From NCBI GenBank assembly GCA_029864185.1, contig JAOTTY010000006.1, forward strand, positions 1-35,391: a DNA stretch of 35,391 nt, given 5' to 3'. The notes below the pieces were generated by a model, which was not told where the DNA came from, did not search any database, and saw nothing but the letters and a program-made list of their open reading frames with translations. Each line of letters starts with the position of its first letter. Position 1 is the stretch's first letter. The stretch is from Gammaproteobacteria bacterium. Lineage in GTDB: Bacteria; Pseudomonadota; Gammaproteobacteria; GCA-001735895. A program made the position numbers and the translations under genes. Positions 10,702-19,310 of this stretch are shown here, piece by piece.

Positions 10702-11142
10702 TTGGAACTTGATATCAGCAAGGTGATGGAACTCTTGCCACACCGCTATCCATTTCTGCTTATCGATCGGGTTGCCGAGATCGAGCGCGGCCAGAGCCTG
10801 TCGGCAATCAAGAACGTCAGCATCAACGAGCCTTTTTTTCAGGGTCATTTCCCGGGACAGCCGATTATGCCCGGCGTCCTGGTGCTGGAGGCGATGGCGC
10901 AGGCCACGGGGCTGCTGGCGTTCACCGAAATGGGGGATGAGCATAAATCCAAGCTATACCTGCTGGTCGGCATCGACAAGGCCCGGTTCAGGGGTAAGGT
11001 AGTTCCCGGGGATCAGCTGTTGCTGTCAATCTCGCTAAAGCGCAATATGCGGGGAATCGGGATATATCAATGCGAGGCGCACGTGGATGGCGAACTAGTC
11101 GCAGAGGCGGAGATGATGTGCTCGGCGCAGGAGCGCCGTTAA
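10702..11142 (+). CDS. fabZ: 3-hydroxyacyl-ACP dehydratase FabZ
   Basis: [14 protein letters not shown] and [23 protein letters not shown] motifs; TTG start. Confidence 0.97.
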
Positions 11143-11912
11143 TGATCCATTCGTCCGCTATCGTTGACCCCGGCGCCAAGCTGGCTGCCGATGTCGAGGT
11201 TGGCCCGTATAGCGTTATCGGGGCGGGTGTCGAAATCGGGGCGGGAACGATAATCGGGCCTCATGTCGTGATTATGGGGCCGAGCAAAATTGGTCGCGAG
11301 AACCGGATTTTTCAATTTGCGTCGATTGGCGATGCGCCGCAGGACAAGAAATACCAGGGAGAGCCGACATCGCTTGAGCTTGGCGATCGTAACGTGATTC
11401 GTGAATATGTAACGCTCAACCGCGGGACGGACGAGGGTAACGGTAAAACCACGATCGGCGACGACAACCTGTTTATGGCCTACAGTCACGTGGCGCACGA
11501 CTGCAGGGTCGGAAATCATACGGTATTCGCCAACGCTGCCTCGTTATCGGGACATGTCGAGGTCGGCGACTACGTGATTCTTGGCGGGTTTACCTCGGTA
11601 CACCAGTTTACCCAGATCGGCAGTCGGGCTTTCTGCGGCCTCGGCTCGGTCGTGACCCAGGATATCCCGCCCTTCTCCACCGCCGCCGGAAACCGTGCCC
11701 GCGTGGTCGGCATCAACAAGGAGGGTTTAAGGCGCAGGGGATTTTCGGCAGATTTGATTCGTGCACTACACAAATCCTTCCGGGAGCTACTAAAATCAAA
11801 GGCCTCCAGGCAGGATGCATTTGAAAACCTTCGGCCTTTGTGCGAGAAATACCCTGAGGTAGAAGAATTTGTCAATTTCGTCAGGAACAGTAAACGGGGG
11901 ATAGCCAGTTAG
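11142..11912 (+). CDS. lpxA: Acyl-ACP--UDP-N-acetylglucosamine O-acyltransferase
   Basis: IHSSAIVDPGAKL hexapeptide helix, FQFASIGDAPQDKKYQGE motif; start overlaps fabZ stop. Confidence 0.97.
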   Translation: MIHSSAIVDPGAKLAADVEVGPYSVIGAGVEIGAGTIIGPHVVIMGPSKIGRENRIFQFASIGDAPQDKKYQGEPTSLELGDRNVIREYVTLNRGTDEGNGKTTIGDDNLFMAYSHVAHDCRVGNHTVFANAASLSGHVEVGDYVILGGFTSVHQFTQIGSRAFCGLGSVVTQDIPPFSTAAGNRARVVGINKEGLRRRGFSADLIRALHKSFRELLKSKASRQDAFENLRPLCEKYPEVEEFVNFVRNSKRGIAS

Positions 11913-11978
11913 CCAGCTTTAAACAGATCCTGATCAATTGTAGGAGGCTAATCGAAGCGACCGGCTGAAGAACACTTT

Positions 11979-14900
11979 ATGAAAGCGCAGAAGAATTTCC
12001 ACGGCTTAATTTGCGCACTCTTTCTGACCGCTATTATCGGTCAGGCACAAGCCCTTGAAATCCTGCATTTTATCGAAGCAAAAGACTATTCCCCGATCAT
12101 GGAGGAGGCCAGGGGCTTAAAAATTACCGATGATGGAGTGGTTTACGTCACCAGCGAAGAACGAGGGACGCTGCTGAAAATTGTCGACGGAAACATCGAG
12201 GCAAGCAGTCTCTATCCTTCGGTCTTCAGGAACTCCAGTCTTGGAGGGATCGACCTTATGCCAGACGGCAACCTTGTTGTCGTAAACGAAGGTTCAGGTC
12301 AGGTCGGAATACTCGATACTAATTTAGCGTTACGAGCATTGTTTTCGCAATCCGGAAGATCGCCCGGAGAGCTGAATGATCCTGGACCGGTTGCTGCTTC
12401 ATTCAACAGGAAAATCTACGTCGGCGATGTCAATAATAAGCGGATTAGCGTGTTTAACAATCAGGGCCTTTATCTCAACAGTATAGGTAAGAATGGCGAT
12501 AGCGACACCGATTTGCTAAGACCCACGCATATCAGTGTCGACGCCGAGGAAAATATCTATGTTCTCGAAGGCCCGACACGAATATCGATTTACAACTTCC
12601 AGGGAGATTTGATCGAGCGCATTTCGGCACAGGATTTAAAGGCCTTTCTTGGAGAGGTACCCGAATTTACCGCGATGACGACAGATCTGCGTGGCAATCT
12701 GTATCTGGGTGATGACGTCGGTAAACGGATAGCATTTTTCGACTGGCGAAAACGCGAGCTGCTTGGACAGTTCGGAGGGCTGGGAAAATCCCGTGCACGC
12801 TACCTGGAAATTAGCCATCTCTCGGTAAACGCCGGGGGTCAACTCGCAGTCCTGGACAGCAGGAACAGGAAAGTCGAGGTTTTACAGCTCGAGCATGCCG
12901 TCTATGCAAATCCCGTGGCGATCGATCTGCTGGAGATTGGCGCGATTATCGATGCGCCCTGCGATGCCCTGGCCGCCTTTGTCGACAACAGAACCCTCTG
13001 TATCAGGCCCGACGACCAGGGCGTCGTATTACTGCGACCAGATGGTAGTGAGATTGGGAAATTTGCCGAGGAGGCCAAACAACCTCAAGCGATATATATC
13101 GGCGCCCAATCGGTTGCGATACTGGATAAAAACAGGCTGCATGCTTATACGCATGACGGCAAGCATCTTTTTTCTATCGGGCGCTTCGGAACTTCGGATG
13201 GTGGATTTCAGTACCCCAGCGACGTTTTCATACGGTACGGTAAGTATTACGTAACCGACAAGGGCAACAACCGCGTCCAGGTATTCTCGAATGATGGGCA
13301 ATTTCTGGAGGAGATAAATCAGCAAGAAGATGGTGAGCAACTGTTTGTCGAGGTCGGTCCTATTGCAGTAGATAGCGAGGAGAACCTGTACATCGCCGAT
13401 ACTGGTGCCGGAGGGGTGATCCAGGTTGTCAGCAAGGATCGCAAGAAAATCACTTCGCTAGGCATAGAGGGTAAATCGCTGCACAATTTCACCCGCTTCT
13501 ATGGGCTGGATATCGATCAACAGGACCGGCTCTACGTGCTGGCGGCCTCGGCGTTCAACGATTTCGGGGTTACCATATTCAGGAACTTCAAGCCCTATCG
13601 GTCTTTCGGGGCCGGGGGCAGCAACGATACCCTCGCGTATTTCGAAGAAGCGACTTCGATTTCGGTATCATCCGATTCGAAGAACAGCATTTATGTCAAC
13701 GACAGCGAACGACACAAGTATTTTCGATTCGATCTCCTGGAGTATCCTGACTCGGCTTTTGGCCTGAACATCAGCGCCAACAGACGGGCGCTCAACCTGG
13801 CATGGAGCAGCAGTAAATCGCCGTTGATCGTGAAATACGAAATCGAGGCAGCTTTATCGAGGGATGGGCCTTACGAATTTTTGGCGAGCAGTACCGAACT
13901 CGAGCGTAAACTATCGGTCGAGGCGGCCGGTAACTACACCTGGTTCAGGGTTGTATCCGTTAGCGACCACGGCTTGCGGGGAACACCCTCGGCACCGAAA
14001 CAGAATCATTTCCAAACGATTGTCGGTCTCTACGCACAAGACGAATTCGCCGAAACCGTGCGGCTGGCTGAAAAGATGCTCAAAATCGAACCGGATAACG
14101 CCGATGCCAGGGATTTGTTCGCGATGAGTCTTTATCGGCTCAAGGATTATACGCGCGCTATCGGCGAGTTCCGGCAATTGGAAGCCGTGAAATCCTATCG
14201 CGACAAGGCGATTCGCTACCAGGTTCGGGCGCATTATGAACTTGGGCAATACCTCGAGGCCAGAGCGTTAATCGACGAACTGCTGGAGCAGGAGCCCGTC
14301 GATGTCGAGCCCTATCTTATATGTACCCGATTAAGCCTGAACCTTGCCGATGCGCTTGGTGCGGTTGCCTGCGCCGAGGACGGCCTCGCCAGGCATCCCG
14401 AAAATATCGAGTTAAGTTATCTTCTGGGTCTGTCCTATATCGAGGCGGGTATTGTCGAAGATGGTTTATCCACATACCAGGCTATAGTCAAGCGCAACCC
14501 GGATAATCATGCAATCAGGCTCAGGATTGCACAGGATCTGTACAATCTGGGCAGGTATGAGACGGCGCTCGGACACTTTGCGGCGGTTGCTGCCGCGCAA
14601 TCGGATTCGGGTGCCGCCGCCGTCGGCAAGGCACGCTCGTTGCTGCGCCTTAATCGTGATGAGGAAGCAAAGACGGTAGCCGTCAAATTGTCCGGCAGCA
14701 AGGAAACCAGGAGTGAGGGTTATTACCTGCTGGGTAAAATTGCCGCCAAGCAGGGAAGGCATAAGGAGGCGGTTTTGCGACTCACGCGGGCCTGCAACGA
14801 CAGTCCAGAAGTAATCGACGCGTGGCTATCCCTGGCCGGTGCCTATGTCGAATTAAACCAGCCTGAACAGGCCGTAAAAGCCCTGGCACAGGGCATTGTG

Positions 14901-16943
14901 CATAATCCCGACATTGTTGAACTTCACGCGCTCGCGGGCAAGCTCGAGTTTGAACGTGAGCAGTACCAGGAAGCCAATATTTACCTGAACAAAGCCGTTG
15001 CCCTGAATCCGCAGGCGCTGCAGGAGCAAAAACTTTATGCGCGCAGCCTGTTTGCCACTCAAAATTATCGTTCCGCCGCAATTCATGCCGAGGCTGCATC
15101 AAGAATTTCGCCCGAGGATATCGACGTACTGGTGCTGCAGGCAGATATTGCCAATCAGCAGGGCAAAATCGGGTCTGCTATCGAATCGCTCAAGACCGCT
15201 ATCAACCTGAACTCCGCGTCCCCTGAGTTACAGTTCCGGATCGGGCGGATATACCAGGAGGCAAATCTGTTCGACGCGGCTCAGCAGCACCTCGAGCAGG
15301 CGGCCGCGATCCGGCCGGACTGGGCGGAACCACACGTTGCGTTGGGCAAACTCTACACCAAGCGGCGCATGTTCGATGCCGCGGTTAAGGAATATGAAAA
15401 GGCGGTCGAACTTGAGCCATCGGAGCGGAATCGGGCTATCCTGAATGTTGCGTTTGCCGAACATAAGAAATCGCTCGAATTCAAGAATAATGCTCCGCAA
15501 TTGTTGCTTTCGGACCTGAAATTACAGACGGTCTTCTCGGCGGCGTATAAACAATACCAGAACCGGCCGATTGGCAGTGTCAAATTGCAGAATGTCAGCG
15601 CTACGGATTACGGGAATTTGAAACTATCTTTTCAGATCAAGGAGTTCATGGATTTTCCGACCTCGATCGATATTGCAGACATCAAGGGCAAGGAATCCCG
15701 GGAATTCCCGATCAAGGCCACATTCAACAATAAAATTCTCGACGTGGACGAAGACACCGGGGTTCAGGTTGAAGTCAGGTTGAGCTATCAGCGCGATGGG
15801 CAAAAAGATGACATTACACTCACCCAGCCGATGACGATTTATGGAAAGAATGCGATGGTCTGGAAGGATGCAGAAATGATCGGTTCATTCGTTACGCCGA
15901 AAGATGACATGCTCAGAAACTACGTCCGTCAGGTCGTGAATACCTATCAACCCGATCCCGGGCCACTAAACCAGAAGCTTGTCGCCGCGATGGTCTATTT
16001 CAGCAGTCTCAGCGCATCCGGAACAAATTACATTGTCGATCCCAATACCCCGTTTTCCGAGCTTCGTGACGATCAGGTCGACTATGTCCAGTTTCCGCGT
16101 GAAACGCTACAGCTCAAAAGCGGGGATTGCGATGACTTGTCGGTGTTGATTAGCGCCGGGCTTGAGAACCTGGGAATCAAGACCGCATTCATCGAGATTC
16201 CCGGGCATCTGTTCCTGATGTTCGATACCGGTCTAGCCGAGCACGAAGCGGACCTGATAAGCCAGGACAGCAGCCTGTTGGCGGTAAAGGATGGAACCGT
16301 CTGGATACCGCTGGAGGCCACAATGGTAAATACCAGCTTCAACGAGGCCTGGGCCGAGGGTGCGCGCAAGTATCAGGCTGCGCTGCGCGCCAGCGAACTC
16401 GCGATAATCGACCTGAACCAGGCCTGGCAAAAATATCAACCGGTTACGCTGCGCAAGGCGAATTACCCGATCGAGCTGCCGGATAAGCATCGTACCGAAA
16501 ATCTTGTCCGACAGGCACAAAATCTGCTGTTGCAAAGGAGTATCGATCGTCTATTATTGCCTTATCAGGCAATGGTTGATAATAATCCGGATAATTCCGC
16601 TGCGCGGCTGCAGATTGCGATTCTCCTGGCACGTTACGGGCTCTATGAAAAGGCGGAGTTAGCTTTTGAAGCGCTGGATGAACTGACACCCAATAATAGT
16701 GCAGTTAACAGTAATCGTGGTAATCTTTACTTTTTACAGGAGGATTATCCGAAGGCGATCGAGTATTATACGCGTGCCGCCGAACTCGATGATGCGGATG
16801 GTGGCATCTGGATAAATTTGTCGATGGCGCAGTACAAGTCGGGTGATCTGGATGCGGCCAGGACCAGTTACCGACAGGCGCTGGGGTTAGATTCCAGCCT
16901 TGCAAAGGTGTATGATGCCTACAGTAAACTATTAAGCCAATAG
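11979..16943 (+). CDS. Very large predicted exported multidomain protein: NHL/6-bladed propeller-like, FnIII-like, TPR array, transglutaminase-like core, C-terminal TPRs
   Basis: Signal peptide (FHGLICALFLTAIIGQAQA); recurring NHL-like strings (YVTDKGNNRVQVFSNDGQF, KIYVGDVNNKRISVFNNQG); many TPR-like units; KSGDCDDLSVLISAGLENLGIKTAFIEIPGHLFLMFDTG resembles a transglutaminase-like Cys...His...Asp core. Domain calls by eye. Confidence 0.85.
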   Translation: MKAQKNFHGLICALFLTAIIGQAQALEILHFIEAKDYSPIMEEARGLKITDDGVVYVTSEERGTLLKIVDGNIEASSLYPSVFRNSSLGGIDLMPDGNLVVVNEGSGQVGILDTNLALRALFSQSGRSPGELNDPGPVAASFNRKIYVGDVNNKRISVFNNQGLYLNSIGKNGDSDTDLLRPTHISVDAEENIYVLEGPTRISIYNFQGDLIERISAQDLKAFLGEVPEFTAMTTDLRGNLYLGDDVGKRIAFFDWRKRELLGQFGGLGKSRARYLEISHLSVNAGGQLAVLDSRNRKVEVLQLEHAVYANPVAIDLLEIGAIIDAPCDALAAFVDNRTLCIRPDDQGVVLLRPDGSEIGKFAEEAKQPQAIYIGAQSVAILDKNRLHAYTHDGKHLFSIGRFGTSDGGFQYPSDVFIRYGKYYVTDKGNNRVQVFSNDGQFLEEINQQEDGEQLFVEVGPIAVDSEENLYIADTGAGGVIQVVSKDRKKITSLGIEGKSLHNFTRFYGLDIDQQDRLYVLAASAFNDFGVTIFRNFKPYRSFGAGGSNDTLAYFEEATSISVSSDSKNSIYVNDSERHKYFRFDLLEYPDSAFGLNISANRRALNLAWSSSKSPLIVKYEIEAALSRDGPYEFLASSTELERKLSVEAAGNYTWFRVVSVSDHGLRGTPSAPKQNHFQTIVGLYAQDEFAETVRLAEKMLKIEPDNADARDLFAMSLYRLKDYTRAIGEFRQLEAVKSYRDKAIRYQVRAHYELGQYLEARALIDELLEQEPVDVEPYLICTRLSLNLADALGAVACAEDGLARHPENIELSYLLGLSYIEAGIVEDGLSTYQAIVKRNPDNHAIRLRIAQDLYNLGRYETALGHFAAVAAAQSDSGAAAVGKARSLLRLNRDEEAKTVAVKLSGSKETRSEGYYLLGKIAAKQGRHKEAVLRLTRACNDSPEVIDAWLSLAGAYVELNQPEQAVKALAQGIVHNPDIVELHALAGKLEFEREQYQEANIYLNKAVALNPQALQEQKLYARSLFATQNYRSAAIHAEAASRISPEDIDVLVLQADIANQQGKIGSAIESLKTAINLNSASPELQFRIGRIYQEANLFDAAQQHLEQAAAIRPDWAEPHVALGKLYTKRRMFDAAVKEYEKAVELEPSERNRAILNVAFAEHKKSLEFKNNAPQLLLSDLKLQTVFSAAYKQYQNRPIGSVKLQNVSATDYGNLKLSFQIKEFMDFPTSIDIADIKGKESREFPIKATFNNKILDVDEDTGVQVEVRLSYQRDGQKDDITLTQPMTIYGKNAMVWKDAEMIGSFVTPKDDMLRNYVRQVVNTYQPDPGPLNQKLVAAMVYFSSLSASGTNYIVDPNTPFSELRDDQVDYVQFPRETLQLKSGDCDDLSVLISAGLENLGIKTAFIEIPGHLFLMFDTGLAEHEADLISQDSSLLAVKDGTVWIPLEATMVNTSFNEAWAEGARKYQAALRASELAIIDLNQAWQKYQPVTLRKANYPIELPDKHRTENLVRQAQNLLLQRSIDRLLLPYQAMVDNNPDNSAARLQIAILLARYGLYEKAELAFEALDELTPNNSAVNSNRGNLYFLQEDYPKAIEYYTRAAELDDADGGIWINLSMAQYKSGDLDAARTSYRQALGLDSSLAKVYDAYSKLLSQ

Positions 16944-16956
16944 GCGCTCGAATTCT

Positions 16957-17499
16957 ATGAAAAAAATATTCATTATTCTGTATTGTGTTAGCGCGATAAC
17001 CCTGCTGCCGTCAGTATATGCCGACGATAAGACCAGTTTTGTCGAAGGCAGTTCGCATAACGTTTTCACCGGCCTGTTCAGATCCGTATGGGCGCATCTC
17101 AAGTCCTATAATCCGGCTAAAAAGGAATCTGCCAGGTCAGAGATTCTCTATTCCGCCGGAATTCGGGGGGCTGAATCCACCGATACTTTGCTCCGCCCAT
17201 ACTGGAAAGACGATTTGTCCCGGGATCAGCAGTTTCAGAGCGAACTACACGAGTTCAGTCTGGCCCAGACCAGGCTAGACCGGGGTGAACTGGAAGCAGC
17301 GGTCAATTCGTTCGATCATTTCCTCCAGGCATTCGAGCAGAGCAGCTTGCGTCCCAATGCGCTTTTTGGCAAGGGCATCAGCCTTGCGGGGATCGGAAAA
17401 ACCGAACAATCGATCATTACCATCAAGCAGTTTATCGAGGAAAATCCAAGGCATCCACTGACAAGAGATGCCAGGCTGGTAATCGACGAACTCCAGTAG
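16957..17499 (+). CDS. Exported TPR-like protein, probable operon partner of the preceding gene
   Basis: Signal peptide (MKKIFIILYCVSAITLLPSVYA); C-terminal TPR-like helices (RGELEAAVNSFDHFLQAFEQSSLRPNALFGKGISLAGIGKTEQSI); 13-nt gap from the upstream gene. Confidence 0.75.
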   Translation: MKKIFIILYCVSAITLLPSVYADDKTSFVEGSSHNVFTGLFRSVWAHLKSYNPAKKESARSEILYSAGIRGAESTDTLLRPYWKDDLSRDQQFQSELHEFSLAQTRLDRGELEAAVNSFDHFLQAFEQSSLRPNALFGKGISLAGIGKTEQSIITIKQFIEENPRHPLTRDARLVIDELQ

Positions 17500-17558
17500 T
17501 CTGGCTTTTGCCAGGTCCGCGGCAATCCCGGCGCGGTCGCATTTCCGTCTGCAGTTTC

Positions 17559-17601
17559 GGGGACACAATACTCGTTTCAAAGAATCGAGTATTGTGTCCC
17601 C
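17559..17601. repeat. Perfect 16-bp inverted repeat, REP-like palindrome
   Basis: GGGGACACAATACTCG - tttcaaagaat - CGAGTATTGTGTCCCC, intergenic before tsaB. Confidence 0.9.
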
Positions 17602-17625
17602 CTGATTCCCCGATATTATAGCGGC

Positions 17626-18291
17626 GTGAACATTCTCGCCATCGACACCTCTACCGAGGCCTGCTCGGCCGCGCTACTGCGGGACGACGGCGCCGTGTTC
17701 GGCGAGTACGCGGTCGCGCCACGTCAGCACACCACGCTATTGCCGGCGATGATGGACGGCGTGCTGCAGGCCTCCGGGCTCGATAAAAGCGCTATTACCC
17801 ATTGCGCCTTCGCCAACGGGCCGGGTGCGTTTACCGGAATTCGAATCGCCGCCGCGCAGGCCCAGGGCATCGGTATCGCGCTTAATATTCCACTGTTGCC
17901 GATATCGACGCTCGCGGTGCTGGCACAGACCGGTTTTGATTGCCTCGATTGTCGCCGCATCCTGACCGCGCTCGATGCGCGCATGGGTGAAATCTACTGG
18001 GCGACCTACCAGCGTGACGAAAACGGCCATGCACGGCTGGTCGGCGTCGAACGGCTCGGCGCGGCGAACGAAATCGACATTGCCGACGATGTCGACTGCG
18101 GCATCGGACATGGCTGGAGCGACGAGTTGCGAGACAGGGTCGGTTTCGAGATCGACGCGGGGCTTTTGCCCGATGCCAGGGCGCTATTAAAGCTCGCCGA
18201 GTCCTCCGCCAGACTGGGTCTCGGGGTCGCCGCCGGCGCCGTCGGAATCAATTACCTGCGCAACCGGGTTGCCGAGAAAGCGAAACTTTGA
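17626..18291 (+). CDS. tsaB: tRNA threonylcarbamoyladenosine biosynthesis protein TsaB
   Basis: ILAIDTSTEACSAAL, FANGPGAFTGIRIAAAQAQGIG motifs. Confidence 0.95.
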   Translation: MNILAIDTSTEACSAALLRDDGAVFGEYAVAPRQHTTLLPAMMDGVLQASGLDKSAITHCAFANGPGAFTGIRIAAAQAQGIGIALNIPLLPISTLAVLAQTGFDCLDCRRILTALDARMGEIYWATYQRDENGHARLVGVERLGAANEIDIADDVDCGIGHGWSDELRDRVGFEIDAGLLPDARALLKLAESSARLGLGVAAGAVGINYLRNRVAEKAKL

Positions 18292-19310
18292 AGCCCGTCG
18301 ACCCGGTTTATCCCTACGGGCCGGCCTGCGCCAAAGGCGTGATCAAATCCAGCCCAGCGGACTTCGTGGTAATCGAGGAGCTCGGGTTCGAACCGTCTGG
18401 GGAAGGGGAGCACCTGTTGCTGCAGGTGGAAAAGACAGGAATGACGACGGCGGACCTGATCAGGCGGATCGCGACTGACTACTCGATGCATCCACGCAAT
18501 ATCGGTTACTGCGGGCTCAAGGACAGGAATGCCGTAACCACGCAATGGCTCAGCCTGCACCTGCCGGGCCGCGAGGTAAATGTAATCGATCCGGCGGACG
18601 ACGCTTACCGGGTGCTGCGTGCGTCAAGGCACCGCGCCAAGCTGCGTCGCGGCACCCATAAGGCCAACTCGTTTCATCTGCGAATACGCGGCCTCGGCGA
18701 GTGCAACGACAACTGCCTGCGCCAGCTCGACGCGATTCAGAGCCAGGGAATGGCCAACTATTACGGTCGGCAGCGCTTCGGGCGCGGGCAGGACAACCTG
18801 GAGCAGGCGCTTGCGCAATTATCCGCTACCAGGGTGAAACCGATGCGCAGGAGCATGTTGATCTCGTCGTTACGCAGTCACCTTTTCAACAGCGTACTAG
18901 CGCGGCGCATATCCCAGGACTGCTGGCAGCGACCCCTGGCGGGCGATGTATTCATGTTGCGCGGATCCCGCTCGATCTTCAGCACAGCCCTCGACGCAGC
19001 CCTGCAGCGGCGTTACGCGGAGCTGGACATTTCCAGCACCGCGAGCCTCTATGGCAGTGGCAAGAGTCTGTTGAGCGGCGAGGCGCTGCAGCTCGAGCGG
19101 CGGGTATTCGACGAAAACGACGCAATCACCGCATGCCTGGACCGGCACGGCGCCAGGCTGCAGATGAGGGCGCTGCGGGTGCCGGTGGAGGACCTGGATT
19201 ACGAATTCGACAAGGTCCGCAGGCTGCTCGAACTGAGGCTGCGCTTACCCGCGGGCAGTTACGCGACGGTCCTGCTAGAGCATTTCATGCATGCGGTCGA
19301 GACTGGCTAG
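18288..19310 (+). CDS. truD: tRNA pseudouridine(13) synthase TruD
   Basis: GYCGLKDRNAVTTQWLS, NYYGRQRFG motifs; TTG start overlapping tsaB stop. Confidence 0.94.
   Translation: MKPVDPVYPYGPACAKGVIKSSPADFVVIEELGFEPSGEGEHLLLQVEKTGMTTADLIRRIATDYSMHPRNIGYCGLKDRNAVTTQWLSLHLPGREVNVIDPADDAYRVLRASRHRAKLRRGTHKANSFHLRIRGLGECNDNCLRQLDAIQSQGMANYYGRQRFGRGQDNLEQALAQLSATRVKPMRRSMLISSLRSHLFNSVLARRISQDCWQRPLAGDVFMLRGSRSIFSTALDAALQRRYAELDISSTASLYGSGKSLLSGEALQLERRVFDENDAITACLDRHGARLQMRALRVPVEDLDYEFDKVRRLLELRLRLPAGSYATVLLEHFMHAVETG

Follow-up and report, generated by a model that had tools for sequence, protein, structure and literature searches.

A conserved gene pair for a large exported protein with a transglutaminase-like core and its small TPR partner

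Two reading frames behind lpxA

Downstream of lpxA (11070-11912) in the window, the 35,391-nucleotide stretch of DNA analysed here, lie two open reading frames, BIG and SMALL, both on the + strand and separated by 13 nt; tsaB and truD follow SMALL. Do these two genes form a unit, and what might their products do in the cell envelope? The list of open reading frames has both at the positions and with the spacing given in a preliminary description of this DNA, and their conservation across two bacterial classes indicates that they are genes rather than chance open reading frames. Their features are as follows.

11979..16943, + strand: BIG, a 1654-aa predicted exported multi-domain protein (open reading frame; full-length homologues in two classes)
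11979..12056, + strand: BIG signal peptide, aa 1-26, cleavage placed by eye after AQA (hydropathy and inspection; no lipobox)
12057..13748, + strand: BIG beta-propeller region, about aa 27-590 (Pfam DUF5128/NHL; conservation)
13761..14018, + strand: BIG FnIII-like segment, about aa 595-680 (fn3 match behind the propeller of homologue L076)
14019..15488, + strand: BIG long TPR array, about aa 681-1170 (Pfam TPR families; TPR matches in the PDB)
15516..15863, + strand: BIG Ig-like beta-sandwich, about aa 1180-1295 (AlphaFold2 strands; homology to the ProA N-terminus)
15876..16508, + strand: BIG transglutaminase-like core, aa 1300-1510 (Pfam PF01841/PF04473 in 22/22 homologues; AlphaFold2/Foldseek; hhalign to the ProA module)
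16128..16130, + strand: codon of Cys1384, invariant
16206..16208, + strand: codon of His1410, invariant
16314..16316, + strand: codon of Glu1446, invariant, candidate third catalytic residue
16596..16940, + strand: BIG C-terminal TPRs, about aa 1540-1654 (Pfam)
16957..17499, + strand: SMALL, a 180-aa predicted exported partner with a C-terminal TPR pair (open reading frame; alignment A2; AlphaFold2; CpoB/BamD-like TPR fold)
17158..17208, + strand: SMALL signature GIRGAESTDTLLRPYWK (conservation in 25 homologues)

By inspection and hydropathy, both N-termini resemble Sec signal peptides, in agreement with the preliminary description. The same means revealed no lipobox, clear later transmembrane helix or sorting signal in BIG, and no lipobox or clear later transmembrane helix in SMALL. 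The proposal that BIG is anchored in the envelope is not supported, and it appears to be a soluble exported protein. The idea of an exported multi-module scaffold stands; next to the export signal, Pfam recognises the propeller (DUF5128, E 4e-17; NHL, E 2e-14) and ten stretches of TPRs (TPR_19, E 5e-43), and the order of modules follows from sequence and prediction. The FnIII-like segment is partly confirmed: fn3 matches just after the propeller in the distant homologue L076 (Pfam, E 5e-9), but the corresponding segment of the window protein has no direct Pfam match. The Ig-like segment is seen in the AlphaFold2 model. Two cysteines of the propeller, Cys328 and Cys341, are invariant in the family and absent from L076.

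After its signal peptide, SMALL is modelled by AlphaFold2 with low confidence in the middle and with good confidence in a C-terminal TPR pair, whose closest solved folds are the TPR domain of CpoB/YbgF (Foldseek top match 2xev) and BamD. The middle bears a conserved G(V/I)RGAEsT..L.PYWK signature, in which G68, R70 and P81 are invariant and W83 nearly so among 25 homologues; minimal versions of the protein (131-151 aa) retain GVRG...YWKG. One locus (L043:10962-12087) has a tandem duplicate of SMALL, the second copy having kept the TPRs and not the signature.

The window's genome comprises 439 contigs, and its close relatives are gammaproteobacterial metagenome assemblies. Within positions 11070-19310, lpxA is not followed by lpxB; tsaB and truD are found there instead, as they are in relatives that lack the pair. 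The gap between SMALL and tsaB contains an inverted repeat (17559-17601, GGGGACACAAT...ATTGTGTCCCC) that looks like a REP-type palindrome, and this pair of arms occurs only once in the window.

Co-occurrence of the pair and its genomic settings

The preliminary description had staked its reading beforehand on co-conservation of the two genes, and this holds: in about 35 loci, SMALL is the next gene downstream of BIG. These loci belong to Gammaproteobacteria and Zetaproteobacteria, occupy several unrelated gene neighbourhoods and reach down to ~25% identity. A homologue scan with one genome per species gave 21 convincing loci, plus a 22nd in Bacteroides that is a weak partial match. BIG homologues with identities between 81% and 29% are collinear throughout, and SMALL comes directly after BIG in every locus whose DNA extends that far.

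A genome-wide search for the pair, which the preliminary description had proposed, was run on an even draw of 370 Gammaproteobacteria. Full BIG was found in eight of these genomes and full-length SMALL in the same eight (in two copies in G152), so that full-length SMALL is confined to BIG genomes in this sample. The only other strong SMALL match there is in G004, with the pair split over contig ends. Candidates for SMALL without BIG were therefore rejected, G004 being this contig split and the remaining matches TPR-only (E 1.7e-11 or weaker). In the family holding the Ghiorsea loci, BIG is present in 14 of 61 genomes: most of genus g358 (with L026, which is G546), some of a second genus, and one of about 22 genomes of a third. 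Distances between BIG proteins track those between SMALL proteins (r = 0.96 over 20 loci, ancestry-related loci being counted as independent). Since BIG and SMALL are gained and lost together, they are presumably a real two-part envelope machine; by all sequence evidence, they are one conserved two-gene unit.

The setting of this unit is far less constant. The bamA-skp-lpxD-fabZ-lpxA context is specific to the window's family, while elsewhere the pair adjoins glgB, gshA, MoxR-DUF58-TgpA, a CHASE2 cyclase, cobT-aroE-pilB, comEC or map (names given by inspection of translations, CHASE2 excepted). The only recurrent neighbours of BIG are SMALL and, in part, the CHASE2 cyclase. We rejected deducing a function from a fixed neighbour, as the lpxA, glgB, gshA, cobT, comEC, map and MoxR contexts are lineage-specific. 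Carriage on a mobile element was also rejected, there being no plasmid or phage match; no defence-island context was seen, the neighbourhoods consisting mostly of housekeeping genes; and the distant loci examined had no CXXCH-rich neighbours of the kind expected in a multi-haem/electron-conduit context.

Several loci have features of their own. The pair lies divergently beside the MoxR-DUF58-TgpA operon in L044, L047 and L048 (and L023), from two different families. In one zetaproteobacterial genus, the gene after SMALL encodes a second exported TPR protein, about 460 aa long (L078:6838-8238, L129:9550-10920). Large open reading frames with many near-identical repeats (PTVTAVSPTGGPTAGGTTVTITGTNF type) lie downstream of the pair in L021 (14440-21036).

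In the window's genus, 22 of the 31 genomes have BIG; G004 makes a 23rd, with the gene split. Five others (G003, G011, G016, G018, G026) have an empty slot, with tsaB directly after lpxA, and two have a contig edge at this position. In G005, all that is left is a broken remnant of SMALL within a gap of 450 nt, its pieces sharing 57% and 46% identity with the window's SMALL; here SMALL is decaying where BIG has gone, making loss the clearest single event. The slot is also empty in three genomes from sister genera (G031, G034, G035). The preliminary description had the pair "inserted after lpxA". The slot is indeed variable and empty in relatives, but two genera of the family hold the pair in this same lpxA-tsaB slot, so repeated loss is the simplest history that the sequences suggest.

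The transglutaminase-like core and the CHASE2 cyclases

The conservation of BIG peaks at aa 1351-1410 and 1441-1470. Cys1384, His1410 and Glu1446 are invariant across the aligned homologues, including L076 at 26% identity; this invariance spans two classes and sits at the conservation peak. Of the catalytic candidates named earlier, Cys1384 (nt 16128-16130) and His1410 thus stand, but the Asp of FDTG does not. This residue, Asp1416, is D, N or S among homologues and hence probably not catalytic; it was rejected as a candidate, and the invariant third residue is Glu1446. The order C1384, H1410, E1446 is that of the superfamily, although the third residue is usually Asp/Asn-like and a Glu is unusual.

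An AlphaFold2 model of aa 1180-1545 (mean pLDDT 84.5) has a beta-sandwich, then a helix starting at the Cys, then strands bearing the His and Glu regions. The top Foldseek matches of the core are PNGases and transglutaminases (PNGase, transglutaminase 2), at a weak E of 0.0015 or more, with none passing E 0.001. All 22 homologues match PF01841 and PF04473 (E up to 1; best E-values 1e-4 and 2e-5, respectively). The window's BIG scores below the Pfam gathering scores (14.9 vs 23 bits for PF01841, 17.5 vs 20.5 for PF04473), and its Pfam scan has no transglutaminase family above threshold, so we term it transglutaminase-like rather than a family member. The 22/22 Pfam matches support the core proposed earlier, and the AlphaFold2 model and Foldseek agree weakly with it; on these predictions, it is transglutaminase-like but divergent.

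Such divergence could also mean that the core is now a binding domain, and that BIG and SMALL are a purely structural scaffold, assembling or stabilising an envelope complex without chemistry. This would suit a protein made mostly of protein-binding repeats, with a partner whose TPR pair is similar to CpoB and BamD, two proteins of envelope assembly. However, Cys, His and Glu are invariant though the neighbouring Asp1416 drifts, and nothing else in BIG is as well conserved as the core; we consider this explanation somewhat unlikely.

A gene for a CHASE2-class III adenylate cyclase directly adjoins the pair in three unrelated arrangements. In two Muproteobacteria (L022, L024), the cyclase gene is upstream and divergent; in L079, it comes after SMALL, at a distance of 10 nt; and three species of G713's genus have it upstream in the same orientation (L076, L126 and L127, the last two cyclases being identified by similarity to the first). 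Chance is an unlikely explanation of this adjacency, which was noticed post hoc and is missing from most lineages, the window's included. In the class sample, CHASE2 is found in 8/8 BIG genomes vs 200/362 others (p about 0.009, or about 0.05 with families counted once; hypergeometric estimate). The three arrangements suggest that the pair is linked to cAMP signalling. The related cyclase of the window's genome (743 aa) is on a different contig (C437), in a cluster (L087) with what reads as an FHA gene, a PP2C-like phosphatase, a second CHASE2 gene and a cyclic-nucleotide-binding-like protein.

Could BIG and SMALL then serve a CHASE2 adenylate cyclase as its input arm in the periplasm, with sensing rather than client catalysis as their main task? 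The recurrent adjacency and the co-presence would both fit such a signalling module, as would two precedents. In S. meliloti, genetics connects CHASE2 cyclases with exported TPR or FecR proteins (PMC5498481), and in magnetotactic bacteria the TPR gene mtxA precedes a CHASE2-cyclase gene (PMC4439547). However, the adjacency is post hoc and absent from most lineages, CHASE2 is common anyway, and the S. meliloti exported partners tested were targets of the cascade and dispensable for signal perception (PMC5498481). We find this explanation decidedly unlikely.

Possible function and known systems

The NCBIfam model NF058533 matches 21/21 members of alignment A1 over the sandwich and core, although the BIG score (46.7 bits) is far from the cut-off of 1500. 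Aligning the module of BIG with that of ProA by hhalign gave a probability of 95.7 (E 1e-8, 285 columns), and placed GDCDD on ATCLD, PGHL on QGHSF and WIPLEAT on VFETT. Since these motifs pair up, the C/H/E set is common to BIG and the ProA module. By these profile comparisons, the closest named relative of the BIG sandwich and core is the N-terminus of ProA (a DUF4011 helicase), not LapG or TgpA. The likeness consists of an N-terminal beta-sandwich and transglutaminase-like module with the same Cys, His and Glu. Beyond this N-terminus, the two differ: ProA goes on with helicase and nuclease domains, and the members read lack an evident signal peptide, whereas BIG is predicted to be exported, with a propeller and TPRs. 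One ProA member scanned in full reads DUF4011 - SF1 helicase - REase_MTES_1575 - DUF3320, all of which are missing from BIG in Pfam. ProA is above the NF058533 cut-off in 20/204 Pseudomonadota genomes. The ProA N-terminus (L133-L142) is itself a beta-sandwich/transglutaminase-like region with Cys-His-Glu, previously unannotated in Pfam. As the literature searched yielded no paper on ProA, its "anti-phage" name rests on NCBI's label (NF058533).

An envelope-level anti-phage defence, which this homology and the scattered occurrence of the pair at a single site in one genus might bring to mind, is highly improbable, given that the neighbourhoods are mostly housekeeping genes rather than defence islands, there are no plasmid or phage matches, PADLOC yields a TPR-type match only, and ProA, a helicase-nuclease with no evident signal peptide, shares only its N-terminus with BIG.

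The reading we prefer, which to us is evenly poised between right and wrong, is that the two genes encode a thiol enzyme built on a periplasmic scaffold and the obligate partner of this enzyme, with a tie to cAMP in some lineages. We infer its catalysis, the contact between BIG and SMALL, the client and the signalling output. The propeller and TPR solenoid of BIG would capture at least one envelope protein as a client, which the sandwich and core, with its Cys1384-His1410-Glu1446 site, would cut or otherwise modify by thiol chemistry. SMALL would be an obligate adaptor, activator or substrate that binds through its TPRs and may dock through its GVRG...PYWK segment. Some lineages would have the unit tied to an inner-membrane CHASE2 adenylate cyclase, and so its state may feed into cAMP signalling. 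A fuller version of this thiol-enzyme reading, in which BIG and SMALL process a client and thereby set the activity of the CHASE2 cyclase (or are set by it), we regard as quite unlikely.

The fold and modules of BIG were already known. Searching the literature for an NHL/TPR/transglutaminase protein brought up nothing useful, and the literature searched yielded no description of the architecture of BIG, its obligate partner, the C/H/E set in common with ProA or the CHASE2 association; these are the new part. They define a two-gene unit that had no annotation and has stayed together in both Gammaproteobacteria and Zetaproteobacteria (Ghiorsea among them), and point to a Cys-His-Glu branch of transglutaminase-like proteins common to BIG and ProA helicases. 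To our knowledge, the inputs of CHASE2 adenylate cyclases are largely unknown, and the pair offers a testable link between them and exported TPR proteins.

Other known systems resemble the pair in part. TgpA is a membrane protein (DUF3488-Transglut_core) whose transglutaminase-like core faces the periplasm, and its operon adjoins BIG divergently in two families; a relationship was rejected, at an hhalign probability of 0.3, no better than chance. CpoB/YbgF resembles SMALL in being exported and in its C-terminal TPR fold, with a weak NCBIfam match. However, SMALL is below the family cut-off (30.9 vs 90.1 bits) and has its own GVRG...PYWK signature, and no tol-pal genes were seen beside the pair in the loci examined. 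MtxA and S. meliloti SMb20495 (with SMc02177/SMc02178) have TPRs and a tie to CHASE2 cyclases by gene order or genetics, and SMb20495 is predicted to be exported like BIG and SMALL; unlike in BIG, neither a transglutaminase-like core nor a propeller is described for MtxA or SMb20495 in the available parts of the papers (PMC4439547, PMC5498481).

The LapG/BTLCP proteins have the periplasmic location and the transglutaminase-like fold that are predicted for BIG, and share with it a GDC(E/D)D-type Cys motif. Membership was rejected, with no PF06035-type match in 22 homologues and 4u65 chain E at E 0.35. LapG and HvyA have a C/H/D or C/H/N triad, whereas BIG homologues are all C/H/E, and they are small, with no fusion to TPRs or a propeller. 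HvyA requires its Cys and His (PMC4241560), and LapG is linked to second-messenger signalling (PMC4359373). LapG-LapD (PMC4359373) and HvyA (PMC4241560) are thus earlier examples of regulated periplasmic enzymes of the transglutaminase-like kind. If BIG and SMALL did set, or were set by, a CHASE2 cyclase, the three would be for cAMP what the LapG-LapD protease switch is for c-di-GMP, and at their centre would be a Cys-His-Glu transglutaminase-like module that a cytoplasmic anti-phage helicase also uses.
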